A stretch of 64,000 bases of DNA from Gracilibacillus caseinilyticus (GTDB taxonomy: Bacteria; Bacillota; Bacilli; Bacillales; Amphibacillaceae). Shown one piece after another: positions 22,734 through 55,224 of the stretch. Each line of letters opens with the position of its first letter. The stretch's first letter is position 1. A program made the position numbers and the translations under genes. Below the pieces are notes generated by a model. That model saw only the letters and a list, made by a program, of their open reading frames with translations, did not search any database and was not told the origin of the DNA. The DNA is taken from NCBI RefSeq assembly GCF_022919115.1, contig NZ_CP095072.1, positions 2,046,001 to 2,110,000 of the forward strand. The letters run 5' to 3'.

Positions 22734-22819
22734 TAATTTGATTAAATGTATAGATGAATATTTTATCTGAGGATGTTAAAAATTCAAAAATGGTTGTATA
22801 CGAATGAGGTTCTGAATAA

Positions 22820-23944
22820 ATGTTTCATATAGACTTAAAATCGTTAGTAATCTACTCAAGTGTATTTATTGTATCAATTTTATTTATAAAAGAATATCAG
22901 AAGAAATGTAGTTATTACGATTCAAGTGTTGAGATTAAATCAAATGATATTGTAAAAAGGTATACGTGTCTTTTTTTTGTTTCGCTAATTCCTACATTAA
23001 TCGCAGGTTTAAGATATGGTGTAGGTACAGATTATTTTAATTACTGGGACATGTTTTATTGGTATAATGACCTATCTTTAAAGGAGCTACTAATTAATGA
23101 AAATGAAAGATTTTTTAAACTTGTAATAATAATTTCAGATTTTCTTTTTCAAAATCCAATTTGGATGTTTGTATTAAGTCATTTTATTACAATGATGTTT
23201 CTTCTAGCTGCTGTGACTACATATAAAAATAAGTTTTCGTATTCATTTTCTTTGTTTATTTTCTTTATGTCATTTTGGTCATTTTCTTTAAATATAACTA
23301 GGCAGTTTATTGCAGTTACTATTGTGTTGTTTGCTATAAAATATATCTTACGTAGATCTTTTGTTAAATACGTAATTTTCATACTAATAGCTACTCAGTT
23401 TCATATGTCAGCTATAATTTGCATTATTTTTTATTTTTTAAATTTTAAAAAATCAACTTTAATACAGTATTTGTATTATTTAATGATAATATTTACTCCT
23501 ATAGTGTTGCCTTTTTTAATTATTTTAATAAGTAAAATACCTCTTTTTCAAGAATATACTACGACATATGAACTGGGAAATCCATTTCAAATTGATTTTA
23601 TATACTCAGCTAAAACATTTTTTTGGTTTTTAATATTAGTAGGTCCAATAATATTTTATAAGAACGGTGTAGTTAATCAAAAATATAATGTGTTATTTAA
23701 TATTTTAATATTAGAATTGCCACTAGTGTATATGGGTAATTTTAATCTGTTTGCAAATCGACTAGCTTTATTCCCCCAAATAATTCAAATTATTATCATT
23801 CCTTTAGTAATAAGTTCTATAAAGAATCCTAAAGAGAAGAGGCTAGTTTTTGTTTATTATTGTATTTTATATTTGTTTATATATTTACAGAGGTTTGTGT
23901 TCTCAAACCAAGGAGATATATTTCCTTATATAAGTATTTTTTAA
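22820..23944 (+). CDS. EpsG-family polysaccharide polymerase (Wzy role)
   Basis: A 374-residue protein with about 10-11 hydrophobic segments. The EpsG-family signature includes LIAGLRYGVGTDYFNYWDMF and NITRQFIAVTIVLFAIKYI, followed by FILIATQFHMSAII. Such proteins polymerise lipid-linked repeat units outside the membrane. It has no clear ribosome site (TGAGGTTCTGAAT lies upstream). It is very AT-rich, typical of the serotype-specific centre of a cluster. Confidence 0.85.
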   Translation: MFHIDLKSLVIYSSVFIVSILFIKEYQKKCSYYDSSVEIKSNDIVKRYTCLFFVSLIPTLIAGLRYGVGTDYFNYWDMFYWYNDLSLKELLINENERFFKLVIIISDFLFQNPIWMFVLSHFITMMFLLAAVTTYKNKFSYSFSLFIFFMSFWSFSLNITRQFIAVTIVLFAIKYILRRSFVKYVIFILIATQFHMSAIICIIFYFLNFKKSTLIQYLYYLMIIFTPIVLPFLIILISKIPLFQEYTTTYELGNPFQIDFIYSAKTFFWFLILVGPIIFYKNGVVNQKYNVLFNILILELPLVYMGNFNLFANRLALFPQIIQIIIIPLVISSIKNPKEKRLVFVYYCILYLFIYLQRFVFSNQGDIFPYISIF

Positions 23945-23961
23945 AGGAAGGGATATAAGTA

Positions 23962-24909
23962 GTGAATGATTTAATTAGTGTAATAATGAGTACCTACAAT
24001 GAAAATAGAAGCGAATTGTTTGACTCTATAAATTCAATTTTAAATCAAAGTTATAAAAATTTAGAATTTATTATTGTTTTAGATAAACCTGATAATTTTG
24101 AGATAAAAAAAATACTTGATGAATTTAAAATAAATGATAGCAGAATCAAAGTTATATTTAACAAAAAAAATCTAGGTTTAGCAGAATCATTGAATGAAGG
24201 TATTTATACTGCCAAAGGAACTTTTCTAGCAAGAATGGACGCTGATGATATTGCTTTTCCAGATAGAATTGAAAAACAATTAAATTATATTAAAAATTAT
24301 GACTTCGACATGATCTCTACCAATAGAATTGATATAGATGAATCAGGCAAAGAAATTTCAAATAAATCTTCTTTGCCAAAAAATAGTGAAATTCACAAGT
24401 TGTTACCGGTTGGGAATTTTATTAATCATCCTACTGTTTTTATTAAAAAGGAAGTTATTAAAAAAGTCGGAGGATATAGAAATTTTAAATCTGCTCAAGA
24501 TTACGATTTATGGCTAAGGCTTTTATCTAGTGGGTATAAGATTGGTATACTTGACGAGCCTTTGTTGTATTATAGAATAAGAAATCAAGGGATATCACAG
24601 AGCGATAAATATAGACAATTTCTATTTACTCAGTATCAACAAAAATTATTTTATGAAAGAATGGAAGGAAAAGAAGATAGCTTTTCAGAAGAAAATTTAG
24701 AGTTGTTTTTAAATAAAAACAGATACAATGATCCTGTTTATAAGGAAAAATTTAATACTGTAAATCAGAAACTGGAAAAAGGCTTGTTGCTCTTAAAAAG
24801 AAAAGAATATAGAAAATCTTTTGCATTACTTTTACAATCAATGCTACTGAACAAACATGTTGCTAAGAAATTTTTTAGTATTATGAAATATAAAATATAT
24901 TCGTCTTGA
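23962..24909 (+). CDS. Glycosyltransferase family 2 (EpsE/CpsJ-like)
   Basis: A 315-residue GT-A enzyme with SVIMSTYNENRSELFDSINS, the metal-binding RMDADDIAFPDRIEKQ and AQDYDLWLRLLSSGYKIG. GTG start at 23962 behind AAGGAAGGG. It lacks membrane helices and is probably cytoplasmic, adding one sugar of the repeat unit. Confidence 0.9.
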   Translation: MNDLISVIMSTYNENRSELFDSINSILNQSYKNLEFIIVLDKPDNFEIKKILDEFKINDSRIKVIFNKKNLGLAESLNEGIYTAKGTFLARMDADDIAFPDRIEKQLNYIKNYDFDMISTNRIDIDESGKEISNKSSLPKNSEIHKLLPVGNFINHPTVFIKKEVIKKVGGYRNFKSAQDYDLWLRLLSSGYKIGILDEPLLYYRIRNQGISQSDKYRQFLFTQYQQKLFYERMEGKEDSFSEENLELFLNKNRYNDPVYKEKFNTVNQKLEKGLLLLKRKEYRKSFALLLQSMLLNKHVAKKFFSIMKYKIYSS

Positions 24910-24930
24910 AATAAAAATTAATTTGAGAGT

Positions 24931-26202
24931 GTGATTAAACTGCAAAAAGGAGTTTTTAGTAACCCTTATATTGTTTCAATTATATCTAAACTTAATATGG
25001 TGATTCTTGGCTTTGTTAATTCGGTATTAATAAGTAGATATTTAGGACCTGAGTTGCTTGGACATTATTCGTATATTATTAATTTTGTGAATATATTTTC
25101 ATTAATGTTAACTTTGAGTATTGGTCAATCATATCCATATTTTAAAAAAAAATATGGAGAAAAGGTACAATCTAAATTTATAAATATTATCTATATTCAA
25201 CTTTTAGTATACTTGTTCTTAGCTTTTTCAATATTTTCTTTAAGTGATAATAAGACTGCTAATATTATTGTTGTGGTTAGTATTTTAACTCAATTCAACT
25301 TACAAATTGGCTTCATTTCTTTAATAATTAATTTATTTAGGAAAAACGTTATTACTATTTATACCTCTATAATAAATACTTTACTGCTTTGTTCAGTTTT
25401 CTTTTTGTCTGTTAAAAATCTTGATTTAGTAATTTTTGTATTGATTTTTAATTTAATTTTAAATTCTTTATGGCTTATATTTAAAATTAAAATTTTTCCA
25501 ACATCATTAGAGTTTAGTTTTTCATTTTTTAAGAATGTTTTATTTTTTGCTTTTTTTCCGATGATGACCAGTTTATTAATTATGCTTAATTATAATTTAG
25601 ATATTATCATATTGGAAAGGTTTGTTGGCTTTGAGGAGATTGGTATATATAGTGTAGGCGTTACATTAGCAAAAATGCTTTGGATAATTCCTGATGCATT
25701 TAAAGATGTGTTATTTAATAAAACTGCCAATAAAGATTCCATAGAAGATATAAAATTTAGTATAAAGATTAATGTGATTATAAGCTTTCTTGTGATTTTG
25801 TGTTTTTCATTCTTGGGACACCTGTTTATTAGATTATTTTATGGTAATGAATTTATTAATTCTTTTGATATTACTCTAATATTATTTCTCGGAAGTGTGC
25901 CGATGATATTTTTCAAAATGATAAACACTTTGTATATTGCTAATGGGAAACAGAAGTTCTCTTTTGTTATCTTGTTATTAGCAGTAACATCAAATGTTGT
26001 TTTGAACTGTATATTCATACCATTATTCGGGTTATATGGTGCCGCAATCACATCAGTTTTAACTTATACTTTTAGTGGAGTAATCTTCTTAAGGTCATTT
26101 ATGAAAAGTTATAAAATTAGTGTTAGAGAAATTTTTCTAATTGAAAGAAGTGAATTTGATAAATTAAAAGAAATTACGAAAAAGAAAGTAGGCAAGTCAT
26201 GA
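24931..26202 (+). CDS. Wzx-type polysaccharide flippase
   Basis: A 423-residue protein with about 12 hydrophobic segments and the start SIISKLNMVILGFVNSVLIS followed by RYLGPELLGHYSYI, typical of MATE/MOP repeat-unit flippases. It moves the lipid-linked unit outward for the polymerase. The GTG start has only a weak GAGAG site. It overlaps the acetyltransferase gene by 4 nt (ATGA). Confidence 0.88.
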   Translation: MIKLQKGVFSNPYIVSIISKLNMVILGFVNSVLISRYLGPELLGHYSYIINFVNIFSLMLTLSIGQSYPYFKKKYGEKVQSKFINIIYIQLLVYLFLAFSIFSLSDNKTANIIVVVSILTQFNLQIGFISLIINLFRKNVITIYTSIINTLLLCSVFFLSVKNLDLVIFVLIFNLILNSLWLIFKIKIFPTSLEFSFSFFKNVLFFAFFPMMTSLLIMLNYNLDIIILERFVGFEEIGIYSVGVTLAKMLWIIPDAFKDVLFNKTANKDSIEDIKFSIKINVIISFLVILCFSFLGHLFIRLFYGNEFINSFDITLILFLGSVPMIFFKMINTLYIANGKQKFSFVILLLAVTSNVVLNCIFIPLFGLYGAAITSVLTYTFSGVIFLRSFMKSYKISVREIFLIERSEFDKLKEITKKKVGKS

Positions 26203-26672
26203 GACTTTTTAAAAAAATATATCAGTTTCTATTTCATCCATCAATAAAGTCAGTGAGATTAGCTAGATTAACAGTTAAGGCACATGCAAAGAATTATATA
26301 ATTATTTCTAATATGTTTAGAAATAGATTATTACATAAGTATGGTATTCATATCGGGAAAAAAACTCAACTTGGAGAGAATCTAAAGTTCCCACATCCTA
26401 ATGGTATAATTATAGGAGATGATGTGGTTATAGGAAGTAATTGTACAATTTACCATCAGGTTACTCTCGGCAAAAAGAATGGTAGTTTAGACTACGAAAA
26501 AGATTATCCTGTTATAGGAAATAATGTTACTATTTTTCCTGGAGCAAAGATTATCGGAAAAATAACTATAGAAGATAATGTAACTGTTGCAGCAAATAGT
26601 GTTGTCTTGGCTGATGTAGAAGCAAATAGTGTTTGTGCTGGTATTCCAGCTAAAGTCATTAAGAAAAAATAG
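26199..26672 (+). CDS. Serine-acetyltransferase-like hexapeptide acyltransferase
   Basis: A 157-residue protein with a short N-terminal helical part and a beta-helix of hexapeptide repeats (GEN-LKFPHPNGIIIGD, VVIGSNCTIYHQVTLGKK with the catalytic His, VCAGIPAKVIKKK). Homologues in polysaccharide clusters O-acetylate sugar residues. Its position inside the cluster favours that over cysteine synthesis. Confidence 0.85.
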   Translation: MRLFKKIYQFLFHPSIKSVRLARLTVKAHAKNYIIISNMFRNRLLHKYGIHIGKKTQLGENLKFPHPNGIIIGDDVVIGSNCTIYHQVTLGKKNGSLDYEKDYPVIGNNVTIFPGAKIIGKITIEDNVTVAANSVVLADVEANSVCAGIPAKVIKKK

Positions 26673-26828
26673 ATAAAAGACTACTAATAAGAATGAAAAT
26701 ATTTAGTTAACCTTTAACAATTAGAATATAAGTTATTTTTAGTTCCTAAATTTACGTGGTTATTCATATTAAACTCTGAACTTGGAAGAATATTTATTTG
26801 ATTTGTTTAATAATCGGGGAGGAATTTT

Positions 26829-27896
26829 ATGATGCATTTGAATAATAAAAAGGAAAAAAAAACCTATTTAGTAACAGGTTCGGCAGGTTTTATAGGATAT
26901 TTTGTATGCAAAAAGTTACTATTTCAAGGGTCTTCGGTAATAGGGATAGACAATTTAAATGATTATTATGATGTTAACCTCAAACAAACTCGATTGGAAG
27001 ATCTTAATACTTATGAAAATTTTACTTTCTTTCAAGAAGATATCTCTGATAGGAGTGCACTTGAGAATGTTTTCTTAAAATATAAACCTAACATTGTAAT
27101 AAATCTAGCTGCACAAGCAGGTGTTCGTTATTCTATAGAAAACCCAGATGTTTACATGCAAAGTAATGTAACAGGTTTCTATAATATATTAGAAGCTTGC
27201 CGTCATTTTCCAGTTGATCATTTAATCTATGCCTCATCTAGTTCCGTGTACGGTGCAAATAAAAAAGTCCCATTTGAAGAAACAGATTTTGTCGACCATC
27301 CAGTATCACTTTATGCATCAACAAAGAAATCAAATGAATTAATGGCTCATACGTATAGTCACCTTTACGACATCCCAGCAACTGGTTTACGCTTCTTTAC
27401 CGTGTATGGTCCTATGGGTAGACCGGATATGGCATATTATGGTTTTACAGATAAATACTTTGCAGGTGAACCAATAAAGATCTTTAATAACGGTGATTTT
27501 GAAAATGATTTATATCGTGATTTTACTTATATTGATGACATAGTAGAAGGAATAGTTAAGCTAATTCCACGCACCCCAAGTGGTGAAGGCGATGTAAAAC
27601 ATGAAATCTTTAATATCGGTAATAACAACCCAGAGAAATTGATGCATTTCATTACTTCTTTAGAGAATGCCCTTAGTAAGTCCTTGGGTAAAACAGTCGA
27701 GTTTAACAAAATCTATGAACCAATTAAACCAGGTGATGTACCGAGAACATATGCATCTACTGACCGATTACATCAGGCAGTGGGATTCAAGCCAAAAACA
27801 TCGATTGAGGAAGGTTTGCAAAAATTTGCAGATTGGTATGTCCAGTATCACAAGTTAACTGAAAATGCGAAGGAAGTGCAAGTTACTAACTCATAA
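26829..27896 (+). CDS. UDP-glucuronate 4-epimerase
   Basis: A 355-residue extended SDR with NAD-binding TGSAGFIGYFVCKKL, the Tyr-Lys pair in SLYASTKKSNELMAH, and the features of the UDP-glucuronate epimerase group (GVRYSIENPDVYMQSNVTGF, RFFTVYGPMGRPDMAYYGF). It would interconvert UDP-glucuronate and UDP-galacturonate. Its neighbours are a galacturonokinase-like kinase, a nucleotidyltransferase and UDP-glucose dehydrogenase, which supports a uronate role. GGGGAGGA precedes the ATG. Confidence 0.88.
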   Translation: MMHLNNKKEKKTYLVTGSAGFIGYFVCKKLLFQGSSVIGIDNLNDYYDVNLKQTRLEDLNTYENFTFFQEDISDRSALENVFLKYKPNIVINLAAQAGVRYSIENPDVYMQSNVTGFYNILEACRHFPVDHLIYASSSSVYGANKKVPFEETDFVDHPVSLYASTKKSNELMAHTYSHLYDIPATGLRFFTVYGPMGRPDMAYYGFTDKYFAGEPIKIFNNGDFENDLYRDFTYIDDIVEGIVKLIPRTPSGEGDVKHEIFNIGNNNPEKLMHFITSLENALSKSLGKTVEFNKIYEPIKPGDVPRTYASTDRLHQAVGFKPKTSIEEGLQKFADWYVQYHKLTENAKEVQVTNS

Positions 27897-27912
27897 ATGG
27901 GGTTATATAATC

Positions 27913-29112
27913 ATGCAGGAACTTGTTAATAGATTTAATCAAATATTTGGCGAGAAAGAAGTAGAAATGATTCGTTCACCTTTACGAATATGTCCATTAG
28001 GTGCACATGTAGACCACCAAGGCGGTATCGTAACTGGTATGGCATTAGATGCTAATGTAGAGATGGTTTTTGCACCTTCAAATGACGGTTATATTCAGGT
28101 AAGAAGTATGGATTTTGCGGATGAGGAGTACTTTCATATGGATCGAGTACCGGAGATGTTACCTGGATTTTGGGGTAACTATCTTCGTGGTACAGTTCTT
28201 TCCTTGCAACAGAATCGGAAATTACAGTATGGCTTAGAAGCAGTGATTAGTGGGAAATTACCAATAGGTGGATTAAGCTCTTCTGCAGCAGTAACAACTG
28301 CCTATTTGATGGCTTTAGCAGAAGTGAATGATTTAGACATCACGAAGGAAGAATTGGTTGGCTACAGTCACTGGGTTGAGACTGAATTTATCGGCTTAAA
28401 GAATGGTATTTTAGATCAGTCTGCTAATATCTTGAGTAAGAATAATCAATTGCTAGTAATGGACTGCAAATCAAGCGAGCATTATTTAGTAAACAAATCG
28501 AATGACATGCCTAACTTTGAAGTGATTGTCGTTTACTCTGGTGTAAGCAAGGCATTGATTGGTACTGATTATAATAACAGAGTGGATGAATGTAAAGTTG
28601 CAGGCTGGATTGTGGAAGACTTGGCTGGGAATGAACGTACTTCATTGCAAGATGTGAGTTTAAGAAATATTTCAGAATCGAATTATCATAAGTTCGGTGA
28701 CCAAGTACCAGGTAAATTTCGTAAGCGAATGGATCACTTTTTTACTGAACAACAACGTGTACAACAAGGAATAGAGGCATGGGAACAAGGTAATATTGAG
28801 CAATTTGGTAAATTGATGTTTGAATCGGGGGAAAGCTCCATTTATCAATATGAATCCGGTTGCCCAGAGCTGATCACTATTTATGAACTGTTAAAAGAAA
28901 CAGAAGGTGTTTATGGGGCACGTTTCAGTGGTGCAGGTTACAGAGGATGTTGTATTGGATTGGTTAATCCAGCATATAAGGAACAAATCAAAGAACACAT
29001 CGATAAAATTTACCCCATTCAACATCCTGCATACAAATACAAATACAAAGTTCACTTTTGTAAATTAAATGATGGTGCACATATTGTAGATCGTATAAAA
29101 TTAAACCAATAA
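27913..29112 (+). CDS. Galacturonokinase-like GHMP sugar kinase
   Basis: A 399-residue GHMP kinase. SPLRICPLGAHVDHQGG is the N-terminal sugar site, IGGLSSSAAVTTAYL the ATP-binding motif and GARFSGAGYRGCCIGL the third motif. The wording PLGAHVDHQGG (galactokinases have GEHTDYNGG) and GLKNGILDQSA resemble the plant galacturonokinase as I recall it. Together with the uronate genes on both sides, GalA to GalA-1-phosphate is the best guess. The ATG 27913 is chosen by comparison with the family; the upstream site is weak. Plain galactokinase activity is the alternative. Confidence 0.8.
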   Translation: MQELVNRFNQIFGEKEVEMIRSPLRICPLGAHVDHQGGIVTGMALDANVEMVFAPSNDGYIQVRSMDFADEEYFHMDRVPEMLPGFWGNYLRGTVLSLQQNRKLQYGLEAVISGKLPIGGLSSSAAVTTAYLMALAEVNDLDITKEELVGYSHWVETEFIGLKNGILDQSANILSKNNQLLVMDCKSSEHYLVNKSNDMPNFEVIVVYSGVSKALIGTDYNNRVDECKVAGWIVEDLAGNERTSLQDVSLRNISESNYHKFGDQVPGKFRKRMDHFFTEQQRVQQGIEAWEQGNIEQFGKLMFESGESSIYQYESGCPELITIYELLKETEGVYGARFSGAGYRGCCIGLVNPAYKEQIKEHIDKIYPIQHPAYKYKYKVHFCKLNDGAHIVDRIKLNQ

Positions 29113-29155
29113 TCAAACTAAAAATTGTTCAACCATGCTTTCTGGAGGGAAAAAG

Positions 29156-29884
29156 ATGAAATGTATTATTTTAGCTGCCGGCTATGCCACAAGATTATAT
29201 CCCTTAACGAAGAATAAAGCGAAACCTTTACTGGAAGTAGCGGGGAAACCAATATTGAATCACATTATCGAAAAGGTGGAGAAAATAGATTCAATAGACG
29301 AAGTATACATAGTCACCAATGAGAAATTCACTTCAAGTTTTCAAGAATGGGTTACTAACTATCAAGGGGATAAACTAGTAACCGTTGTAAATGATCATAC
29401 AACAACAAATGATAATCGATTAGGTGCAATTGCTGATATACAGTATGTATTAGAGCGTCATGAGATCAATGAAGATATAATGGTCTTAGCAGGTGATAAT
29501 CTCTTCGAATTTGAATTATTAGATTTCGTGCATTTCTATCACGAGGTGAATGCAGATTGTATTTCCTCACATGAATTAGATGACATTGAAGAAATGAAAC
29601 GAACGGGGATTGTCGAAGTGAATGAAGAGGGGATTGTAGCTTCCTTTGAAGAGAAACCATCAAAGCCGAAATCAAATTTAGCTGTACCACCATTTTATTT
29701 ATATAAATCATCAACTCTACCGTTATTCAAGCAATATTTAGCAGAAGGAAATAATCCGGATGCTCCGGGTAATTTTATTCCATGGCTGATTCAGCGACGA
29801 AATGTATATGCCTTTACTTTTGAAGGTTTGCGACATGATATTGGTACCATGGAAAGCTATGAGAAAGTACAAAAATTATTTTAG
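29156..29884 (+). CDS. Sugar-1-phosphate nucleotidyltransferase
   Basis: A 242-residue nucleotidyltransferase with LAAGYATRLYPLTKNKAKPL, MVLAGDNLF (metal-binding Asp) and a C-terminal GTMESY motif. It lacks the GalU hallmarks. Directly following the kinase, it would convert the sugar-1-phosphate, probably galacturonate-1-phosphate, to its UDP (or other NDP) form. TGGAGGG lies 7 nt before ATG 29156. Confidence 0.82.
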   Translation: MKCIILAAGYATRLYPLTKNKAKPLLEVAGKPILNHIIEKVEKIDSIDEVYIVTNEKFTSSFQEWVTNYQGDKLVTVVNDHTTTNDNRLGAIADIQYVLERHEINEDIMVLAGDNLFEFELLDFVHFYHEVNADCISSHELDDIEEMKRTGIVEVNEEGIVASFEEKPSKPKSNLAVPPFYLYKSSTLPLFKQYLAEGNNPDAPGNFIPWLIQRRNVYAFTFEGLRHDIGTMESYEKVQKLF

Positions 29885-29898
29885 GGGAGTAGAGAGAA

Positions 29899-31065
29899 AT
29901 GAAAGTAACAGTAGCGGGGACAGGCTATGTCGGATTATCTAATGCCGTTTTATTAGCGCAGCATAATGAAGTGACAGCAACCGATATTATGGAAGAGAAA
30001 GTTAGGATGATTAACCACAAGAAATCACCAATAGTTGATGATGAAATTCAAACTTATTTGGAAACAAAAGATTTGAATTTGGTAGCGACAACCGATGTAC
30101 ATCAGGCTTATGAAAATGCTGAATTTGTGATTATATCCACACCAACCAATTATGATCCAGATCGTAATTATTTTGATACAAGTACTGTTAATAATGTAAT
30201 TGAAACTGTTTTGAATATTAATCCTGAGGCTGTAATGGTCATTAAGTCTACGATTCCAGTAGGTTATACATTGGAACTTCGAGAAAAGTTTAAAACAGAT
30301 AATATAATATTTTCACCAGAATTTTTACGTGAAGGACAGGCTTTATATGATAATTTGTATCCATCTCGAATTGTTGTAGGTGAGAAATCAGAGCGTGCTC
30401 GTACGCTTGCAAACCTTCTAGCCGAAGGTGCGATCAAAGATGATATTAAAATTCTGTATACGGATTCAACAGAAGCAGAAGCGATAAAATTATTCGCAAA
30501 TACATATCTAGCTATGCGTGTTGCGTTTTTCAACGAGTTAGATACTTATGCAGAAGTACGTGATTTAAATGCCAAACAAATAATTGAAGGAGTCGGTTTG
30601 GATCCGCGTATTGGAGACCACTATAATAACCCTTCATTTGGATATGGTGGTTATTGCTTGCCAAAAGACACGAAGCAATTACTAGCTAATTATCAAGATG
30701 TACCAAATAATATTATTGGTGCAATTGTAGATGCAAATAGAACCCGTAAGGATCATATTGCGGACAGGATTCTTGCGAAGAAGCCATCTGTTGTAGGTAT
30801 TTATCGTTTAACAATGAAAAAAGACTCTGATAATTTCAGACAATCTGCTATACAAGGTGTAATGAAACGTATTAAAGCTAAAGGTATAGAGATCGTTGTC
30901 TATGAACCGGTATTAACTGAGGATGAATTCTATGGTTCTCGTGTAGTGAAGGATTTTAGAGAATTTAAAGGCATATCAGATGTAATTGTGGCGAATCGGC
31001 TGACAGATGATGTTAGAGATGTTGAGGAAAAAGTATTTACGAGGGATTTGTTTAGTAGAGATTAA
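29899..31065 (+). CDS. ugd: UDP-glucose 6-dehydrogenase
   Basis: A 388-residue enzyme with the NAD-binding start [34 protein letters not shown] and the catalytic Cys253 in [15 protein letters not shown]. It oxidises UDP-glucose twice to UDP-glucuronate, linking GalU to the 4-epimerase of this cluster. It begins 14 nt after the nucleotidyltransferase and ends at a terminator, the last gene of the polysaccharide transcript. Confidence 0.95.
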
Positions 31066-31128: not shown

Positions 31129-32493
31129 GGCTCCATTATATATGTTGGGGTTTGAAAAAATTAAGCATAATAAAACACGCAAGCTCCTATATCCTTTACA
31201 CTTGAATGGACTAGAAACAAACCAAAGGGATAGGAGATGCGTGTACATGCAGTTTAACATGAATTTACCAGGATTAGAAAGTGTTATTGTTACTAAGATG
31301 GAGGAGTTGGAGGGGGACTTTTACTTACATATAAAGTTGCCTGTTAAGAAACACCGTTGTCCTGCTTGTGGGGAAAGAACAAGCCACGTCCATGACTATA
31401 GAATACAAAAGGTACAACACTTAAAGCTCTTTGAACGAACATCTTATCTGTTTTATAGGAAGCGAAGATACGTTTGTACTTGTGGAAAGAGGTTTCCTGA
31501 GAAAAACCAAGTTGTAGGGCGATATCAAAGACATTCAAAGGAATGGAATCAAGCCCTAGGGCTTCGTGTTATCCATTAAAGATACTGCTGGTCAGTTCAG
31601 AACTTCTCAAACAACAGCTATTCGTCGATTTGATCAACTAGCAGCTACTAGTTTAAAAGAAGTGGACACGTTACCACCAGTAATAGCTATCGATGAATAT
31701 AAAGGGGATACAACAGAAGGTAAATACCAAGTAATCATCGCAAATGGAGAAACAGGTGTCCCGCTTGATATATTACCGAATCGCTCTGTACGTACGATTA
31801 AAAAGTACTTAGCCAAAAAAGGATCTCAAGTAAAGATGGTTGTCATGGATATGAGCTATAGCTTTAAGTCAGCAGTTCAAAAGGCTTTGGGGAACCCCAT
31901 CATCATTGCAGATCGCTTCCACTTTTGTCGGTATATTTATTGGGCTTTAGAACGAGTGAGAAGACGTGTTCAAAAAGAATTCCATGATTACGACCGCAAA
32001 AAGTGCAAGCGTATGAAACACATTTTTTATAAACGATATGAAGAACTGAGTAGTAAGCAACACTGGTATTTAGACAGATATTTAGGCTTGTCGGAGGATT
32101 TACGACAGGCCTATGGTTTAAAGGAAGCATTCCGCTCCTGGTTTGAAGGAGCGAAAAAGGTTGGAACAAAAGATTTAGGTGAAGTAAAACAAGGACTGTA
32201 TAACTATTACAAACAGGTAGAAAAAGCAGGACTAGATGAGTTCATCAAAGCCGCTGGTACACTCAAGAACTGGCAAGCAGAAGTTTTAAATAGTTTTGCC
32301 TTTGACTACAACAATGGATTTGTGGAGGGCTAAATAACCAAACAAAGGTTATTAAACGTAATGCATTTGGCTTTAAACGATACGATCGATTAAGGTTACG
32401 TGTATTACTGCATCATCAATTTAAAAACCTAGATTTTCAAGTTGGTTAAGGGATAGGAGCAAAGATTCCTACCCCAACATTTGACGCAGAACC
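31129..32493 (+). mobile_element. ISL3-family insertion sequence (1,365 bp), inactivated
   Basis: The ends are imperfect inverted repeats. The left begins GGCTCC and reaches ATGTTGGGGT; the reverse complement of the right begins GGTTCTG and reaches the same ATGTTGGGGT. It is flanked by an exact 8-bp duplication. The inside encodes one ISL3 transposase broken by two frameshifts, so it can move only if a related transposase acts in trans. It sits between the polysaccharide cluster and LCP/galU debris. Confidence 0.92.
31247..32449 (+). pseudogene. ISL3-family transposase, two frameshifts
   Basis: Three pieces follow one another. The first, from ATG 31247, holds a zinc-finger region (HRCPACGERTSHVHDYR, CTCGKRFPE). 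After a shift near 31570 come the HTH and DDE parts (IAIDEYKGDT, MDMSYSFKSAV, ADRFHFCRYIYW) up to NGFVEG at about 32330. A second shift gives LNNQTKVIKRNAFGFKRYD to the stop at 32449. Rejoined, they make a near-complete ISL3 transposase of about 400 residues. Confidence 0.9.
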
Positions 32494-35559: not shown

Positions 35560-35850
35560 TCAACGTGTACTACTTATAAAGCAGTTCATTACATCGACTG
35601 GCAATAAATACTCAACAGGTACCATTTCATAAAAGGGCGCTACTCCTTTCTTATTTGGAATATAACGAATCAATCCTTTTGAGAGGAGTACGGCTCGTCC
35701 ATTTTTCCTGCCTTTGTCCGATAATTTCGTTAATTGATGAAGGAATCGCTTCCGAAGCTTCCAATTCTTTCTCCCATGCGACAGCACTGTTTATTTGCAG
35801 CAAGGTATGCCATAATAAAATCGCATTACGTGGTAGTCTATGAATATCTT
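35560..35850 (-). pseudogene. Fragment of a DnaD-like replication protein, frameshifted
   Basis: On the minus strand one frame reads KDIHRLPRNAILLWHTLLQI and INSAVAWEKELEASEAIPSS. The next frame continues KLSDKGRKNGRAVLLSKGLI and RYIPNKKGVAPFYEMVPVE. The pattern LWHxLL..N...W, then (T)KLSDKGR..LLSKGLIRY, resembles the N-terminal winged-helix of DnaD-like phage and plasmid replication proteins. One frameshift separates the halves and no C-terminal domain remains. Confidence 0.4.
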
Positions 35851-36265
35851 TCCCTTTATCATTGTAAATGGTCTATTCACTTCTATAATCAAATAAAGTT
35901 AGCGTTGGGTGTCTACTTTTTCATGAAAATAATGAATTGTTTGATGTGTGATAGATCCAGGGGTACAATGTAATGATAGGAAGTAGTTTTGAAATGTTAT
36001 CGAATCTTTACTGTATAAATGGACTCATTTCTAATTAAGTAAAAGATTCATTATGTGGATCGTCTTATTTGACTATGATTTGGTAAACTATACTTAGTCA
36101 ATCCATGGATAGTTGTGACCGTCAACTAAAATGAAACAGTTTCTGCTTAATTATCAGAAACACTTAACTGTAAATTACCTTTCCCATTTGTAATGAATTC
36201 AGCCTTTCATCACAAGATATATGTTAATCATGGTCTAAATTTCTTACGTAAAGATGGAAGAACAA
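35851..36265. other. Non-coding stretch, nothing recognised
   Basis: Only short interrupted frames occur. A weak hairpin (GTTTCTG/CAGAAAC near 36139-36161) is visible. It may be decayed sequence between the replication-protein remnant and the methyltransferase terminator. Confidence 0.4.
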
Positions 36266-49482: not shown

Positions 49483-50070
49483 TTAGTGTAGTAAAAGAGC
49501 AACAGCACATTGCAAAAGTAATAACGCCAATATAATATTTATTATTCGATAATGTTTGAAATATGTCTTTTGTAATATCCCGCCGAAAAATACCCAAGAC
49601 AAAGTAGCAATCGTACCTACTGTAGCAATAAGTATTTCAAAAAATAAAAGCGTTCCCAGTGATGAGTAATAAGGTGTAATATATCCTGTTAATGCGGTAA
49701 TTCCAAATAAAAATATTTTCACATTAACAACTTGCAGGACAAATCCAATCCAAAAAGAAGGCTGTTTGTCAGATGTTTTATTGTCAGGCTTACTGATTGC
49801 AACCCGATAGGCAAGCCATAAAATATAAATAGCTCCCGCATATGTAAGTACATTCATAATTGGATTTATTAAGTTATTTAGTCCAAAAATAAAGAAGGCA
49901 CATAACGCTTGTACGAAAAAATACCCTGCAAAGATCCCGAAGTATAAAGGTTTTCCTTTTTTCCATCCATAATTCGTCATTGTATTTAATGCCAGAATAT
50001 TACCCGGACCCGGTGTAAAGGCATTTATTAGTGCGTAGATAACAAATGAATACAATACTTGAACTCCCAT
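49483..50070 (-). CDS. LysE/RhtB-family amino-acid exporter
   Basis: A 195-residue protein with six hydrophobic segments and the family start AFTPGPGNILALNTMTNYGW followed by KKGKPLYFGIFAGYF. ATG 50070 is chosen because GGAGAGTG lies about 9 nt upstream. It would export an amino acid or related metabolite. A LysR regulator gene lies 137 nt upstream on the same strand and may control it. Confidence 0.9.
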   Translation of the reverse strand: MGVQVLYSFVIYALINAFTPGPGNILALNTMTNYGWKKGKPLYFGIFAGYFFVQALCAFFIFGLNNLINPIMNVLTYAGAIYILWLAYRVAISKPDNKTSDKQPSFWIGFVLQVVNVKIFLFGITALTGYITPYYSSLGTLLFFEILIATVGTIATLSWVFFGGILQKTYFKHYRIINIILALLLLQCAVALLLH

Positions 50071-50207
50071 ACAACAATCACTCTCCAATTTCAATCATTA
50101 CACATAATTATAAGGGAGCTTACTCGTAATAGCATAATACTTAAACGGCATAGCCTGATATAATTAAAAGTTATATCAGAAAGGCTATTTACTAAGACAA
50201 TTTTTAT

Positions 50208-51113
50208 TTATAATTCCTGTGCAACACTTTCTAAAGCTTCCACATATATTTCACCAAGTCTTGATAATGTGACATCTCTATGCTGCATTATTCCTACACG
50301 TATAAGTGCATCTACATTAAGAGGAACAGCAATAATATCTTCCCCATGAAGATATTTAGGAAAAACTCCCGAAGAAATGGTGTAACCGTCAAGACCAATC
50401 ATAAAATTAACAATAGCTGCCCTGTCACTGACTTTAATGCTTTTCTTCACACTTCTAGTACTTAGAATTTCTTCTGAAAAATAAAAAGAATTGTACTCTC
50501 CTTGTTCGAAAGAAAGGCAAGGGTAGTCATCTAATTCTTCCAGATTAATCGATTCTTTGCCAGCTAATGGATGTCTTTTACTAATAAACACGTGTGGTTT
50601 TGCAGTAAATAATTCTGAAAAGGTCAAATCCCTTTCTTTTAACAATTTTAATAAAACAGATTCATTATAATTACTTAAATAAATAATACCTAACTCACTT
50701 CGTAAATTTTTAACATCTTCTATTATTTCAAAAGTTTTCGACTCACGAAGTGTAAACTCATATTCAGAAGCCCCAAATTCTTTAACAAGTTCCACAAAAG
50801 CATTGGCTGCAAAAGTATAATGCTGGGTTGAAACACAAAAATGTTGCTTAGCTGGTTTTTTACTTAAATATTTTTCTTCAAGCATGTTAAACTGCTGTAA
50901 TACTTGTCTAGCGTAACCTAGAAACCCGGATCCTTCATTAGTAATGGTAACTCCCCGATTGGTTCTAATGAATATAGTGATTTTAATCTCCTTTTCTAAC
51001 TCCTTAATCGCATTCGATAATCTTGGCTGGGAGATGAATAAATCTTTTGCTGCTTCATTCATGGATCCCTTACTTGCTACTTCTAATGCATATTTTAATT
51101 GTTGTAAAGTCAA
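50208..51113 (-). CDS. LysR-family transcriptional regulator
   Basis: A 301-residue LTTR. The N-terminal wHTH (LTLQQLKYALEVASKGSMNE, AAKDLFISQPRLSNAIKELE) precedes a substrate-binding domain (about 90-295) similar to the CysB/CbbR fold. TTG 51113 is preferred over the upstream ATG because AGAGAGGTG precedes it and the protein then starts at the normal LTLQQL position. Possible target: the LysE exporter. Confidence 0.9.
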   Translation of the reverse strand: MTLQQLKYALEVASKGSMNEAAKDLFISQPRLSNAIKELEKEIKITIFIRTNRGVTITNEGSGFLGYARQVLQQFNMLEEKYLSKKPAKQHFCVSTQHYTFAANAFVELVKEFGASEYEFTLRESKTFEIIEDVKNLRSELGIIYLSNYNESVLLKLLKERDLTFSELFTAKPHVFISKRHPLAGKESINLEELDDYPCLSFEQGEYNSFYFSEEILSTRSVKKSIKVSDRAAIVNFMIGLDGYTISSGVFPKYLHGEDIIAVPLNVDALIRVGIMQHRDVTLSRLGEIYVEALESVAQEL

Positions 51114-51149
51114 TTTGAACACCTCTCTTTCAAAGTTCCAATCCTTCAT

Positions 51150-51522
51150 TTAACAATAGATTTTACCACTTTTCTGTCAAACATATTCAATTTTATAGGA
51201 TTCTCAAGATGCTTTTTTCCGTTAAATGGTTCGATTGATGAATAAGAATTTTTTCTTAAATATGCATAAAATTAATGCCATATATACTATTGTTATTTGT
51301 AATTATATACGCTATATTGCTTTTTGCAACCCTATCACAATATGATAGTGAGGATTTCAACTGGAACACAATAGCCCTATTTTAATGAAGGTGAAGAATT
51401 TAGGAGTAAATTATCTTGATAAATATGGATATCAGGTTGTGAAACAAGCGAAACAACTGTAATTGGTTTCGTTATTTTCAAAAAAGTACGGTATTTCTCC
51501 GAACTGTATGAGAAAGCTCTTT
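51150..51522. other. Intergenic with a short frame, otherwise unassigned
   Basis: At 51390 a short frame (MKVKNLGVNYLDKYGYQVVK then QAKQL) is protein-like but only 25 codons long and without a good ribosome site; it may be debris. Nothing else is recognised before the promoter elements of the sigma-factor gene. Confidence 0.35.
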
Positions 51523-51619
51523 TTCTCTAGAGAAGTGCTTCAAAATCGATCAGGAATAGCGATTATTGCTGATTCAGAACGAAATACCGGTATGTGACCT
51601 GCACATGCATTCCCGCTAT
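51523..51619 (+). promoter_or_regulatory. Unusual promoter-like element before the sigma-factor gene
   Basis: TTCTCTAGAGAA (perfect palindrome, 51523-51534) is followed by CGGTAT (51588-51593), exactly 17 bp and TCCCGCTAT (51611-51619), 60 nt before the sigma-factor start. The same pieces, with the same 17-bp gap, precede the next gene (52322-52394). The boxes are GC-rich and unlike SigA sites, suggesting recognition by an alternative sigma factor, possibly the one encoded here. Confidence 0.65.
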
Positions 51620-51678
51620 GATAGACATACCGCGGAATACTGGATAAGTGCTTATCACCTAGCAGGTGCAGGAGAAAG

Positions 51679-52158
51679 ATGGAATTTCAAGAAGTATTGG
51701 AAGAGCATGAACGCATGATCCACCATTTTATTCATCGTTATCAGATACGGGATGCAGAGGGTGAATTTTATCAGGAGGGCCTAATTGCTGTCTGGCATGC
51801 TTATCAACAACATGATCCTTCTAAATCGAAATTATCCACGTTTATTTACAGCTCCATTTCCAGACGTTTTCTCAATATGATCCAGAAGAACAACCGTGAC
51901 CAGGAGAAGCAGCAGGACTGGCTGGAACAGGTGAGGGAAGACGACTTATGGAAAGAGGATAGCTATCCACTCGATAGTTACCTGATGGACACGTTCAAAC
52001 AAGTATTATCAGAAAAACAATGGTGCTGGCTGGTCGAATTTGTCATAGAGGATCAATCTGTAAAATCCATTGCAGAGCGTCACGATACGACAGAGGTTGC
52101 CGTGAAGAACTGGGGCAGAATGGCGAAGCAAAAGATTCGGAAGGTGATGGAGCAGTAA
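51679..52158 (+). CDS. Small sigma-70-family RNA polymerase sigma factor
   Basis: A 159-residue protein with a region 2 (EGEFYQEGLIAVWHAYQQHD, PSKSKLSTFIYSSISRRFLN) and a region 4 HTH (LSEKQWCWLVEFVIEDQSVK, SIAERHDTTEVAVKNWGRMA) joined by a charged linker. There is no region 1 or 3 and no anti-sigma gene next to it. It resembles the ComX/phage-type small sigma factors of Firmicutes. AGGAGA lies 5 nt before the ATG. A phage-type replication gene follows under an apparently identical promoter, so it probably drives a small regulon that includes itself. Confidence 0.85.
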   Translation: MEFQEVLEEHERMIHHFIHRYQIRDAEGEFYQEGLIAVWHAYQQHDPSKSKLSTFIYSSISRRFLNMIQKNNRDQEKQQDWLEQVREDDLWKEDSYPLDSYLMDTFKQVLSEKQWCWLVEFVIEDQSVKSIAERHDTTEVAVKNWGRMAKQKIRKVMEQ

Positions 52159-52218
52159 GGGGAGGTGGAGAAGGCTTTTTTGATAGAAAATCTTTTCAGC
52201 ATTTCATAGATAGTGATA

Positions 52219-52252
52219 AAGCCCTTGTTGAACAAGCAAGGGCTTAATTTAT
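52219..52252 (+). terminator. Terminator after the sigma-factor gene
   Basis: AAGCCCTTG and CAAGGGCTT form a perfect stem around TTGAACAAG, then AATTTATT. Confidence 0.75.
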
Positions 52253-52321
52253 TAAAATTTGTAGCGTATATTAGTCAAGCAGGCAGAAAAAGCGATTTTC
52301 TAAATGGAAAATCTAATTTTC

Positions 52322-52394
52322 TCTCTAGAGAATTGCTTTTTCTACTATGCTCACATAAATATCGGTATATGCTAAATCTTCCGTCTCCCGCTAT
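52322..52394 (+). promoter_or_regulatory. Second copy of the unusual promoter-like element
   Basis: TCTCTAGAGA (52322-52331), CGGTAT (52363-52368), a 17-bp gap and TCCCGCTAT (52386-52394), 53 nt before the next gene. ATAYCGGTAT and TCCCGCTATNATRGA are shared with the element at 51588-51625, while the spacer sequences differ. This is the pattern of a promoter and not of a simple duplication. Confidence 0.65.
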
Positions 52395-52446
52395 CATGGA
52401 AGCACTGCTTATTATACTATAAGTGAATGAAGAGAGGGGAATGGAT

Positions 52447-53466
52447 ATGGCAAATCCGCAAGTGGAAGATGGGTACATAAGAATAGCAAATGAGTTATGG
52501 AATGAAGTATTACGACGAGCTTTCTCAAAGAGGCAGACGAATCTGATTCTGTTCATCTGGCGGTTATCATACGGAACCGGACAGAAGGATTGCATGATTC
52601 CAAGCTTTATGAACTTTGAATTAGCAGGCATGTATAAACAGGACGTGAAGAAGGAGCTTACTTTTTTACGCGATTGTGCCGTCCTGGATTGGGATCCACA
52701 AACAATGGTGTTTTGCATTAATAAAAACTATCATCTCTGGCAAATTACACCGAATAAGAAATGGGACAATGAGCGCTTTAACCAGCTTCTGAAAAAGAAT
52801 GTACATCGCAAGAAAGCGAATACCTCAGATGCACAACCTGTTACGGCAGAAAGTAAGCAGGTAAGTCATTCACTGACGAAACCGAATAAACAGGTAAGTA
52901 AATCACTTACCACCAAGTTAGTAAAATACTTACCCGAAAATGGTGATAAGCCAATGGTGGTAAAGGATCCAGCTTCCCGAAAGACAGAAGAGAGGAAAGA
53001 TAGAAAAGAATGTAATAGTTATAGAGACCCGCACTTTTGCGAATTATTGCAATTTTATCGTGAAAATTTACAAATAGGAATCACGGATTCGCCATATAAC
53101 TATGAATTACTGACCCAATGGTATGAGGAGTATGGCTATGAGCTGGTAATGGAGGCGATGAGAATTGCTACCAAGGCCGAAGCGAAGGGGGTGAAATATT
53201 TAGAAAGTGTCCTGTTGAATTGGGCACAGATGGGTGTGAAAACAGCAGCGGATGTGAAGGTGATGGTAAAACAACGAAAAACAAATCATATGAAGCCGGC
53301 CTATCAGAAAAATCGTGCTGATGTTAAGCGGGATATTATACCGGATTGGTATGTGAGACAGAGAGAGCAGCCGGCAAAACAAAATACGGAGACAGAGGCG
53401 GAGAAGGAGAGAAAAGCGGCAGAGGTGGATCGGATGCTGGAGGCGTATTTGATGGGGGAGGTTTAA
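52447..53466 (+). CDS. Phage replication protein O / DnaD-like protein
   Basis: A 339-residue protein. The N-terminal phage-O winged helix (DGYIRIANELWNEVLRRAFS, KRQTNLILFIWRLSYGTGQK) is followed by a Ser/Lys/Thr-rich linker (about 125-190) and a DnaD/DnaB_2 domain (YEEYGYELVMEAMRIATKAE, GVKYLESVLLNWAQMGVKTA). Such proteins load the replicative helicase on phage or plasmid DNA. ATG 52447 is preferred, with GAGAGGGG 7 nt upstream. No helicase loader or integrase is next to it, so it is an isolated phage-derived gene. Confidence 0.88.
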   Translation: MANPQVEDGYIRIANELWNEVLRRAFSKRQTNLILFIWRLSYGTGQKDCMIPSFMNFELAGMYKQDVKKELTFLRDCAVLDWDPQTMVFCINKNYHLWQITPNKKWDNERFNQLLKKNVHRKKANTSDAQPVTAESKQVSHSLTKPNKQVSKSLTTKLVKYLPENGDKPMVVKDPASRKTEERKDRKECNSYRDPHFCELLQFYRENLQIGITDSPYNYELLTQWYEEYGYELVMEAMRIATKAEAKGVKYLESVLLNWAQMGVKTAADVKVMVKQRKTNHMKPAYQKNRADVKRDIIPDWYVRQREQPAKQNTETEAEKERKAAEVDRMLEAYLMGEV

Positions 53467-53666
53467 AAATGAGATATTGGATCTAATATAAATTATGTAT
53501 AAAGTAGTATTATTCTCGTGTTTTAGTTAGTAAAGAGTAACACATAGCCCATTTCTACGCTTGAATATTGTCTTTATTTGTCGAAAGTGTTGCGATGTTT
53601 GATTTTCTTTAGTACTTTTTACTTATAATAGTAAAAAAGAATCATGAAATTAACAGGGGGATCAAG

Positions 53667-54236
53667 ATGAATATAACAAACATTACTAACGAAATAAATT
53701 ATTTGAAAGATATATTATTAAAATACGAGGAATTAGAAGCCGAGCGATCTAATATTTTTAAAAAACCATTATCAAATATGAGTATAGGAAAGAAAATATT
53801 GCTATTTATTGGAATGTATATGGTAAGTGGCTTTATTTATGCGATACCGAATTTAAAATATTTATCTATCTTTGTGCTTTTAGGAAGTGTTTATTTTATA
53901 TTCTTTTGGCCAAATAGAAAGGTTAAATCAAATATTGCTCAAAACAAATCAAGAATTGAGGAGATAGACACAAAAATTTTATCTTTAAGTCAAAAGATTC
54001 GCCCTAATTATATACCAGAAAAATATATTCATTTACATGCTTTAAATTCATTAGAAAGTTATTTTTCTAACAAACGAGCGGCATCATTAAAAGAAGCATT
54101 AAATTTATATGAAGAAGAAATAAGACATATGCAACATTTAAAAGAAATGAATATGCTACAAGAGATGCAAAACGCTACTTATAAAAAAGCACAGGAAGCT
54201 ACAACAATAGGTTGGATAAATATGTTTCGACGATAA
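53667..54236 (+). CDS. Membrane protein with two helices and coiled coil, unknown function
   Basis: A 189-residue protein. An N-terminal helix (about 1-30), a transmembrane hairpin (IGKKILLFIGMYMVSGFIYA, then YLSIFVLLGSVYFIFFWP, about 43-85), and a coiled coil of the heptad type (about 90-115 and 135-175). AGGGGG precedes the ATG. No family is recognised. It stands alone with its own terminator. Confidence 0.75.
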   Translation: MNITNITNEINYLKDILLKYEELEAERSNIFKKPLSNMSIGKKILLFIGMYMVSGFIYAIPNLKYLSIFVLLGSVYFIFFWPNRKVKSNIAQNKSRIEEIDTKILSLSQKIRPNYIPEKYIHLHALNSLESYFSNKRAASLKEALNLYEEEIRHMQHLKEMNMLQEMQNATYKKAQEATTIGWINMFRR

Positions 54237-54276
54237 TGGATTTTCAATGTGAAAATAAAATAGTGGGACAAAGGGG

Positions 54277-54301
54277 ACAAGAAACGATTCTTGTATTTTA
54301 T
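54277..54301 (+). terminator. Terminator after the membrane coiled-coil gene
   Basis: ACAAGAA and TTCTTGT stem with loop ACGA, then ATTTTAT. Confidence 0.65.
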
Positions 54302-54342
54302 CTATGAATGAACCGTTCTTGTATCACCCTTATGGATAATTT

Positions 54343-55224
54343 TCACCCTTTAATCCCAGTAATCGCAACACCCTCAATAATTTGCTTCTGAGAAAAGATA
54401 TACACAATCAATACAGGAATAACAGAAATCACAGTTCCCGCCATCATTAATGGCCAGTTAGCGGTGTATAAACCTTTGAACGAGTTTAATAAGATTGGTA
54501 CGGTAAACTTCTCCGGTGTGTTTAAATAGATTAATGGATCAAGGAAATTGTTCCATGATTGTAAGAAGGTGAAGATTGCGATAGCTGCAAGGGCTGGTCT
54601 AATCAGAGGAAGGATAATATTCCAATAGATTCTCACATAGCCAGCTCCATCCATGATGGCAGCTTCCTCCAGTTCTTTCGGGATACCCATAATAAATTGT
54701 CTCAATAGGAATACAGCAAACGCATTAAACAAAGCCCCTGGTACAATAAGGGAATAATGGGTATCTAACCAATTTAATTGATCCATTACTAAGTATAGAG
54801 GAATCATCGTGACTTGCTTTGGAATCATCATCGTGGCCAGGAAGAGAATAAACAGGATGTTCGCACCTTTGAAGTTAATTTTTGCAAATGCATAGGCGGC
54901 CATCGAAGCGGTAATTAATGTACTAAAAACGATCAACACCGTAATGTAGAAACTATTAAAATAGGCTAAGCCAAACGGCATTGCCAATAGCGAGTCTATA
55001 TAGTTACTCCACATAACCGGATCTGGTATCCATTGAGGTGGAATAACAAATATTTGCGACATATCCTTTAATGAGCTTAAGATCGTCCAAACGAAAGGGA
55101 AAATCATGATGAATGATCCGGTAATCAGCATGATATGGAGCAAGATTTTGGTCCAGTTGCCATTCTTTCTTGTTTGAGCCTGATTCGCTATGGTTGCAGG
55201 TTGTAATTCCAGATTATTTTTCAT
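54343..55224 (-). CDS. Carbohydrate ABC transporter permease, MalG-like
   Basis: A 293-residue permease with six predicted helices and EAA loop ELEEAAIMDGAGYVRIYWNI. It overlaps the upstream permease by 11 nt and starts behind GGTGGG. It is the last gene of the minus-strand sugar operon. Confidence 0.92.
   Translation of the reverse strand: MKNNLELQPATIANQAQTRKNGNWTKILLHIMLITGSFIMIFPFVWTILSSLKDMSQIFVIPPQWIPDPVMWSNYIDSLLAMPFGLAYFNSFYITVLIVFSTLITASMAAYAFAKINFKGANILFILFLATMMIPKQVTMIPLYLVMDQLNWLDTHYSLIVPGALFNAFAVFLLRQFIMGIPKELEEAAIMDGAGYVRIYWNIILPLIRPALAAIAIFTFLQSWNNFLDPLIYLNTPEKFTVPILLNSFKGLYTANWPLMMAGTVISVIPVLIVYIFSQKQIIEGVAITGIKG

Follow-up and report, generated by a model that had tools for sequence, protein, structure and literature searches.

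The DNA considered here is a 64,000-nucleotide window of the genome of Gracilibacillus caseinilyticus, a salt-loving relative of Bacillus (assembly GCF_022919115.1, contig NZ_CP095072.1, positions 2,046,001 to 2,110,000 of the forward strand), in which a gene for a small sigma-70-family factor is followed by a gene for a replication protein with a phage O-like N-terminal and a DnaD-type C-terminal domain, hereafter the DnaD/O gene (Table 1). A preliminary description of this DNA had drawn attention to two boxes, CGGTAT-N17-TCCCGCTAT, upstream of both genes, and had read them as a novel promoter through which the small sigma factor activates itself and its neighbour. Comparison of the sequences reveals a shared promoter with its -10 hexamer, arrays of AT-rich boxes, a linkage to a ComK2-type gene and a second motif in related genera. 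These comparisons suggest that the shared sequence is a sigma-A-type promoter under positive control, run by sigma-A together with an activator of the ComK2 type, with a probability of roughly 0.57.

Both domains of the DnaD/O protein score above their curated cut-offs (Phage_rep_O, 82.1 bits against 28.7; DnaB_2, 45.6 bits against 22), and the protein matches PHROG 16826, a DnaD-like helicase loader, at E 1e-53. Its start at ATG 52447 has been chosen by eye, behind a GAGGGG ribosome site, with GTG 52423 opening the same frame. A second DnaD/O gene, broken by frameshifts and stops, lies elsewhere in the genome (genome positions 1231127-1232330) and carries three AT-boxes and the shared promoter pattern. 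The sigma gene was searched for across 159 genomes of the family, with the upstream regions of its best relatives being aligned; a relative at E 0.001 or better occurs in 154 of these genomes, not all such relatives being orthologues. An additional homologue search (89 proteins) brought no regulatory evidence.

Table 1. Genes and sequence elements of the window discussed in the text
Feature	Position	Strand	Basis or remark
ComK2-type gene, 153 amino acids	33438..33899	-	Pfam ComK, E 4e-32, 111.5 bits, cut-off 22.3
Putative decayed DnaD-like gene fragment, frame broken	35711..35845	-	Similar to the L363 DnaD-like protein (tblastn, E 5.7e-4)
GACACC-N16-TGATTATA, one letter off the promoter of other genera	35884..35913	-	Loose scan, which gave one further near match in the window (55469, minus strand)
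Inverted-repeat element CTTTTTCTCTAGAGAAGTGC, centred on CTCTAGAGA	51519..51538	+	Upstream of sigma gene; proposed distal operator (degenerate K-box core)
Proximal element AAATACCGGTATGTGACC of sigma gene	51582..51599	+	AAATA-N5-A-N-RTG pattern; palindrome ATACCGGTAT abutting weak -35 (GTGACC, 51594-51599)
Predicted -10 hexamer TATGAT of sigma-gene promoter	51617..51622	+	17 bp after GTGACC; overlaps end of the second box as first drawn
Leader ACCGCGGAATA plus palindrome GATAAGTGCTTATC (51643-51656)	51629..51656	+	Between predicted start site and ribosome-binding site
Small sigma-70-family factor gene, 159 amino acids	51679..52158	+	Pfam Sigma70_r2, E 1e-10, plus YlxM-like helix-turn-helix
Three AT-boxes, 21-bp period	52287..52341	+	Before DnaD/O gene; 52287-52299, 52308-52320, 52329-52341 (third, one mismatch)
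Proximal element AAATATCGGTATATGCTA of DnaD/O promoter	52357..52374	+	Pattern and alignment; -35 position ATGCTA (52369-52374)
Predicted -10 hexamer TATCAT of DnaD/O promoter	52392..52397	+	17 bp after the -35 position
DnaD/O replication gene, 339 amino acids	52447..53466	+	N-terminal Phage_rep_O, E 4e-23; C-terminal DnaD/DnaB_2, E 6e-12

Promoters of the sigma and DnaD/O genes

The two-box sequence is present twice in the window, at 51588-51619 and 52363-52394, and no copy arose in 100 dinucleotide shuffles of the window. A scan of the complete genome (a single contig of 4,509,959 bases), which had been recommended at the outset, returned these two copies alone and none for the reversed control, and the extended form ATAYCGGTAT-N17-TCCCGCTATNATRGA again detected only these two sites with up to three mismatches allowed; the further sites that had been envisaged elsewhere in the genome were not found. 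The similar distance to both start codons was also borne out, with 59 nt between the end of TCCCGCTAT and ATG 51679 of the sigma gene and 52 nt in the case of the DnaD/O gene. The box borders, on the other hand, had been mis-set, as sigma-A-type hexamers (TATGAT and TATCAT) lie elsewhere than the boxes drawn, and the first box adjoins the -35 on its upstream side. Concerning the GC-rich letters to which significance had been attached, the only place outside this genome where TCCCGC is found again is the sigma gene of the sister genome G032, whose DnaD/O genes have TTCCGC or unrelated letters instead, and the CGG of the first box is conserved only in part among relatives.

The general layout in relatives is a weak -35 of the form RTGAC, followed after 17 bp by a sigma-A-like -10, with transcription of the window sigma gene predicted to start at A51629. 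In the alignment, the -35 position is occupied by ATGACA, ATGACT, ATGATA and similar hexamers, while some sequences diverge further. When compared to TTGACA, the -35 hexamer of the sigma-A consensus, the sigma gene matches at four of six positions and the DnaD/O gene at three, and the sigma-A-type assignment is based on the TAnnnT hexamer at a fixed place, 17 bp from the -35. This hexamer precedes the ACCG of the leader described below in all 46 aligned leader-bearing sigma loci, 6 nt away in 44 of them and 7 nt in 2, as against a mean of 4.8 loci and a maximum of 15 in 500 mononucleotide shuffles of the 40 nt upstream. Recognition of the window sequence by the small sigma factor itself, as first proposed, is not supported by this -10. 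At the DnaD/O gene, a layout of the kind ATGCTA-17-TATCAT is also found in the corresponding genes of G029 and G032 and in the broken paralogue (genome position 1231278), with TATTAT, TATCAT, TATAGT, TATGAT or TATGGT at the -10 position of these copies; the DnaD/O genes of G024, G034, G035 and G037 fit it poorly or not at all.

A scan of 17 Gracilibacillus genomes with the pattern AAATA-N5-A-N-RTG(A/C)-N19-TATnnT yielded 39 matches, compared to 11 for the reversed control. Fourteen of these belong to nine sigma and five DnaD/O genes, all with the proximal AAATA-N5-A-N-RTG pattern and the same 19-nt spacing between RTG and TATnnT, so that the layout is truly common to both genes and, as the suggested search of related genomes has now revealed, conserved in part of the genus. 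Among the 35 matches whose context was viewed, these two kinds of gene are the only recurring carriers and no third one was found; the 21 viewed among the other 25 are scattered, many of them within genes. This genome has five matches, including the two window genes, the broken DnaD/O paralogue and one before a polysaccharide pyruvyl transferase-like gene (by eye).

A distinctive leader separates the predicted start site of the sigma gene from its ribosome-binding site. The survey covered 80 sigma loci, the best-scoring of 142, and in 44 of them detected a leader, ACCG(n)CGGAATA, with a palindrome behind it (GATAAGTGCTTATC in the window, AAGGCGCCTTT and others elsewhere), spanning eleven named genera and one metagenome-assembled genome (43 sequences aligned). 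Within the genus Gracilibacillus, ACCGCGGAATA is specific to the sigma gene, with 14 of its 22 exact matches in the 17 genomes located there. As a general regulatory site it has been rejected, given that the other eight look incidental, two being T-box-leader-like and six apparently intragenic (by eye). A scan of positions 50000-55000 against Rfam gave five matches, none reaching the gathering score. Stems of at least four pairs with a 4-nt loop can be drawn from the leader palindrome in 23 of 46 loci (300 shuffles: mean 3.1, maximum 9), whereas a 2-nt loop allows stems that are no shorter (mean 4.07 against 3.80), and for this reason a DNA dyad appears to fit equally well as or better than an RNA hairpin. 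The palindromes are not in register in the leader alignment. The palindrome varies in sequence and often remains symmetric about its centre, in keeping with a DNA dyad.

Upstream elements and the ComK2-type gene

Before the DnaD/O gene, the first two AT-boxes (52287-52320) form a perfect K-box, AAAA-N5-TTTT-N8-AAAA-N5-TTTT, with no mismatch. The K-boxes of ComK in Bacillus subtilis are pairs of AAAA-N5-TTTT with a spacer of 8, 18 or 31 bp (PMC3536758). Perfect K-boxes occur at three separate places in the genome, two of which precede DnaD/O genes; the third (genome position 3085385) has been set aside as probably due to chance, as it overlaps an AGGAWW-N14-CGAATA promoter. With up to one mismatch, 12 matches per strand were counted in the genome, compared to 4 for the reversed control. 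The best K-box with an 8-bp spacer has 0-2 mismatches at 9 of 13 DnaD/O loci (p 0.005 or lower each, 200 shuffles), a set that leaves out L057 (a weak N-terminal piece, below the E-value filter) and L061 (a match without the N-terminus). All three AT-boxes are perfect in two G032 copies and in the broken paralogue.

The CTCTAGAGA palindrome which the preliminary description had noted before both genes is indeed present (51525-51533 and 52323-52331), where it separates the two arms of an inverted repeat TTTTC-N6-GAAAA; it does not form a rigid unit with the boxes, since its start-to-start distance to CGGTAT differs (63 and 40 nt). In 13 of the 17 sigma loci of Gracilibacillus, the best match to GATTTTC-N6-GAAAATC is situated between -153 and -162 relative to the start codon; with 5 mismatches of 14, the copy in the window is weak on its own. 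Over 32 sigma loci, the repeat occurs with up to four mismatches in 16 (shuffles: mean 8.2, maximum 15), which is only suggestive of a ComK-like site at the sigma genes.

The window also contains a ComK2-type gene, whose membership of the ComK family is clear from a score above the Pfam curated cut-off. A genome-wide search for ComK detected two genes, the window copy and another of 175 amino acids, with the window protein being 22 residues shorter, mostly at the C-terminus, in a pairwise alignment. The gene stands 18 kb from the sigma gene in the window. Among relatives, 18 of the 44 leader-bearing loci have a ComK2-type gene (match cut-off 1e-12, which excludes a weak match of E 2.6e-5 in L312) no more than 10 kb from the sigma gene, compared to 1 of 36 leader-less loci; in 12 of the 18 the distance is at most 2.5 kb. 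In several Gracilibacillus genomes, ComK2-type relatives adjoin sigma or DnaD/O genes, being divergent from the DnaD/O gene in G029, from the sigma gene in G030 and from one of two sigma genes in G033. In Bacillus cereus ATCC 14579, BC5251, the sigma-factor gene next to comK2, rose more than 1000-fold when comK2 was overexpressed, as measured by quantitative reverse-transcription PCR, with rises of 1.9-fold by B. subtilis ComK and 2.6-fold by ComK1 (PMC3128618). The AT-box arrays, the linkage to a ComK2-type gene and these B. cereus data together point to ComK2 as the activator.

We infer ComK2 binding and sigma-A use in the window, and the proposed process would run as follows. A ComK2-type protein would bind AT-box/inverted-repeat elements (TTTTC-N6-GAAAA) some 45-65 bp upstream of the -35, these elements taking the form of K-box arrays before the DnaD/O gene. 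A second factor, or ComK2 itself, possibly binds the AAATAnCGGnA element abutting the -35. The bound factors would together bring ordinary RNA polymerase to the DnaD/O gene as well as to the small sigma gene, with the small sigma factor as one output of a ComK2 circuit.

The GACACC motif and competing explanations

In relatives, the sigma factor's own recognition sequence is probably GACACC-N16/17-CGATTATA, a pairing suggested by the genes that carry this motif. The sequence G(A/C)CACC-N16/17-CGATTATA, or one letter off, precedes 13 of 36 leader-less sigma genes, in Halobacillus, Salimicrobium, Thalassobacillus, Virgibacillus and Oceanobacillus, compared to none of 44 leader-bearing ones. The motif has also been detected before DnaD-like genes of Salirhabdus, Paraliobacillus, Halobacillus and Virgibacillus (as GCCACC in the last), before pairs of a helix-turn-helix (HTH) gene and a DnaD-like gene at four loci (one with a broken DnaD-like frame), before a peptidase-like gene (by eye) and upstream of DUF1659-DUF2922 pairs at six loci, of which one was checked with Pfam. 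Over the 159 family genomes, GACACC-N16/17-CGATWATA has 69 exact matches, compared to 14 for reversed controls. Thirty of the 69 were inspected, and 11 precede DUF1659-DUF2922 (6), HTH-DnaD-like (4) or sigma (1) genes, the other 19 being within genes, before unrelated genes or unclear. At locus L316 of Halobacillus hunanensis, a DnaD-like gene diverges from the sigma gene, with the motif on both sides, an arrangement close to the loop first proposed for the window, but with a different sequence. In other genera, a sigma gene can thus have an unusual promoter in common with a DnaD-like neighbour, fitting in part what would be expected of self-recognition, though not with the window's sequence. 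The motif would serve some DnaD-like genes and DUF1659-DUF2922 pairs, and the sigma gene as well in some of the genera.

Aquibacillus, Paraliobacillus and Salirhabdus hold both kinds of promoter, the sigma gene having TAnnnT and the leader, and other genes carrying GACACC/CGATTATA. This suggests that the sigma gene in these leader-bearing genera is not driven by the presumed target-type promoter, which speaks against the self-recognition first proposed, and as the Gracilibacillus sigma promoter is of that same type, sigma-A with a ComK2-type activator has been ranked ahead of recognition by the small sigma factor. The strict motif is missing from 16 of the 17 Gracilibacillus genomes, the one match standing before an unrelated gene. 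In the window, the decayed DnaD-like fragment stands behind the one-letter-off copy.

Several observations weigh against control by ComK2 or against the proposed sigma target. A strict K-box score failed at the sigma gene, being significant in 1 of 17 Gracilibacillus loci, and the best score with an 8-bp spacer in the window copy has six mismatches, outside the range of a K-box; in addition, the 6-bp spacer of the inverted repeat is not unique at sigma loci, as spacers of 7, 12 and 14 bp do equally well or better. The array is absent at 4 of 13 DnaD/O loci (L054, L056, L058 and L059), the last two with phage-like surroundings (by eye), and by eye L057 also lacks it. No good K-box was found before comGA in the genus (best 3 to 6 mismatches, 17 loci), and use of the B. 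subtilis site by the ComK proteins of this genus is consequently not shown. No ComK2-type gene occurs in the viewed flank of 26 of the 44 leader-bearing loci, some flanks ending at contig ends, and expression of comG was lowered in the B. cereus comK2 study (PMC3128618). Of 24 loci with the other type of DnaD-like gene, 16 have no site resembling GACACC/CGATTATA within 400 nt, and 4 of the 8 DnaD-like loci that do have one had been fetched for that site.

A different explanation, unlikely but the strongest of those competing with sigma-A and ComK2, is that the small sigma factor changed its specificity in Gracilibacillus and now reads the shared promoter, activating itself and the DnaD/O gene. 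The restriction of recurring pattern matches to these two kinds of gene is in keeping with it, as are the near loss of GACACC-N16/17-CGATWATA from the genus and the occurrence of GACACC/CGATTATA at both sigma and some DnaD-like genes of other genera, including both sides of L316, which indicates that a self-activating loop may exist in the family. Regions 2.4 and 4 are the parts of a sigma factor that contact DNA, and residues 62 and 66, which we take to lie in region 2.4, are R (15/17) and N (14/17) in Gracilibacillus, where K/S or N/D are commonest elsewhere. Nonetheless, the -10 is sigma-A-like and is the same in leader-bearing genera with CGATTATA sites elsewhere, and the region-4 helix (AVKNWGR-A-K) is nearly unchanged in Gracilibacillus, so that GACACC should still be the -35 of the small sigma factor. 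Both factors might also act together in a rewired circuit, a combination which must be regarded as rather improbable: the founding GACACC/CGATTATA targets (DnaD-like and DUF1659-DUF2922) would have been lost, leaving one fossil at 35711-35913, the -10 reading of the sigma factor would have been altered through region 2.4, and the new O/DnaD neighbour would have come under a promoter read by ComK2 and the altered sigma, in a feed-forward loop driving a chromosomal phage-derived replication loader.

Phage O proteins bind iteron-type repeats, and the inverted repeats at a 21-bp period directly before a Phage_rep_O gene could be an iteron set of a former phage or plasmid replication origin, bound by the O-like protein, with the likeness to K-boxes being incidental. 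This seems improbable, considering that a related element has a constant position upstream of 13 of the 17 sigma genes of Gracilibacillus, most without an O gene in the viewed locus, and that the two more distant O/DnaD genes with phage-like surroundings lack the array. Recent copying of one upstream region, by duplication or gene conversion without shared control, would account for CGGTAT, TCCCGCTAT and CTCTAGAGA occurring together in one genome and only partly in the sister genome, yet it is very improbable. The 17-bp sequences separating the boxes show no relation, CTCTAGAGA stands at distances that differ by 23 bp, and in G029 the general pattern likewise precedes the DnaD/O gene, which is located 44 kb away from the sigma gene of that genome.

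Genomic context and comparison with known systems

Another promoter sequence, AGGAWW-N14-CGAATA, precedes comGA (assigned by eye among T2SSE matches) in exact form in 16 of 17 Gracilibacillus genomes, as well as coiA-like genes at three loci (by eye). It was considered as a target of the small sigma factor and rejected, as it also precedes a spo0A-like gene and histidine kinase genes at four loci (by eye). It is more likely an ordinary sigma-H promoter and does not separate sigma-H from the small sigma factor. Competence is run by sigma-H in Staphylococcus, and the same may apply to Gracilibacillus. Genes for NERD-like proteins (by eye) repeatedly have a sigma-H-type promoter, as seen at six loci.

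Exopolysaccharide genes (sugar epimerase, nucleotidyltransferase and UDP-sugar dehydrogenase, by eye) lie near the sigma gene, at 11716-31065 of the window, and such a neighbourhood occurs in at least four other genomes (G029, G030, G033 and G035). Two adjoining open frames at 31142-32333 resemble a split ISL3-type transposase (by eye), and the 189-residue membrane protein encoded at 53667-54236 is very weakly matched in NCBIfam by the anti-phage protein KwaB (20 bits, cut-off 200).

The link between comK2 and BC5251, ComK-controlled genes and small alternative sigma factors were already known. In the portion of the open-access literature covered, no study was found that gives this sigma family a promoter, a leader or a target motif, nor one joining ComK, a sigma factor and DnaD. 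ComK2 proteins have no clear role in competence, and the accessible part of the B. cereus study names no promoter, target sequence or purpose for the rise of BC5251 under comK2 (PMC3128618). The present analysis offers testable proposals, namely a sigma gene that is linked to ComK2 and has an unusual leader, a sequence which this family of sigma factors probably recognises, and replication loaders of phage type that would have been domesticated and be targets in common. The motif before DUF1659-DUF2922 pairs provides a clue to what these small proteins do. If true, part of the Bacillaceae ComK network would govern genes of DNA replication, not of DNA uptake.

Among known sigma factors, the best NCBIfam match of the window protein is PRK06759 (NF005248), matched by all 24 aligned members of the family at E 0.001 or better; at 78.4 bits, the window protein is below the curated cut-off of 133 and is not assigned to this equivalog. 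It resembles the competence factors of the sigma-H/ComX type in being small and having Sigma70_r2, and its best match of solved structure, by sequence, is 3mzy, called a sigma-H factor (profile positions 27-81), but the window promoters do not match AGGAWW-N14-CGAATA. The perfect K-boxes with an 8-bp spacer before several DnaD/O genes resemble the K-box promoters of B. subtilis (PMC3536758), the differences being that up to three tandem boxes at 21 bp occur here, that the sigma gene has only the inner half and that comGA of the genus is without a good box. Another parallel to the proposed circuit is the comK2-BC5251 pair of B. cereus ATCC 14579. For this pair, the accessible part of the source (PMC3128618) mentions neither a promoter, a leader or a target motif nor a DnaD gene, and the window genes are 18 kb apart. 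In common are a C-terminally short ComK2-type gene neighbouring a small sigma gene and the strong rise of that sigma gene under B. cereus ComK2, and the BC5251 primer qBCE19 encodes QCGLIGLW, resembling the QEGLIALW block of the window sigma family, the likeness by sequence consisting of these eight residues (PMC3128618).

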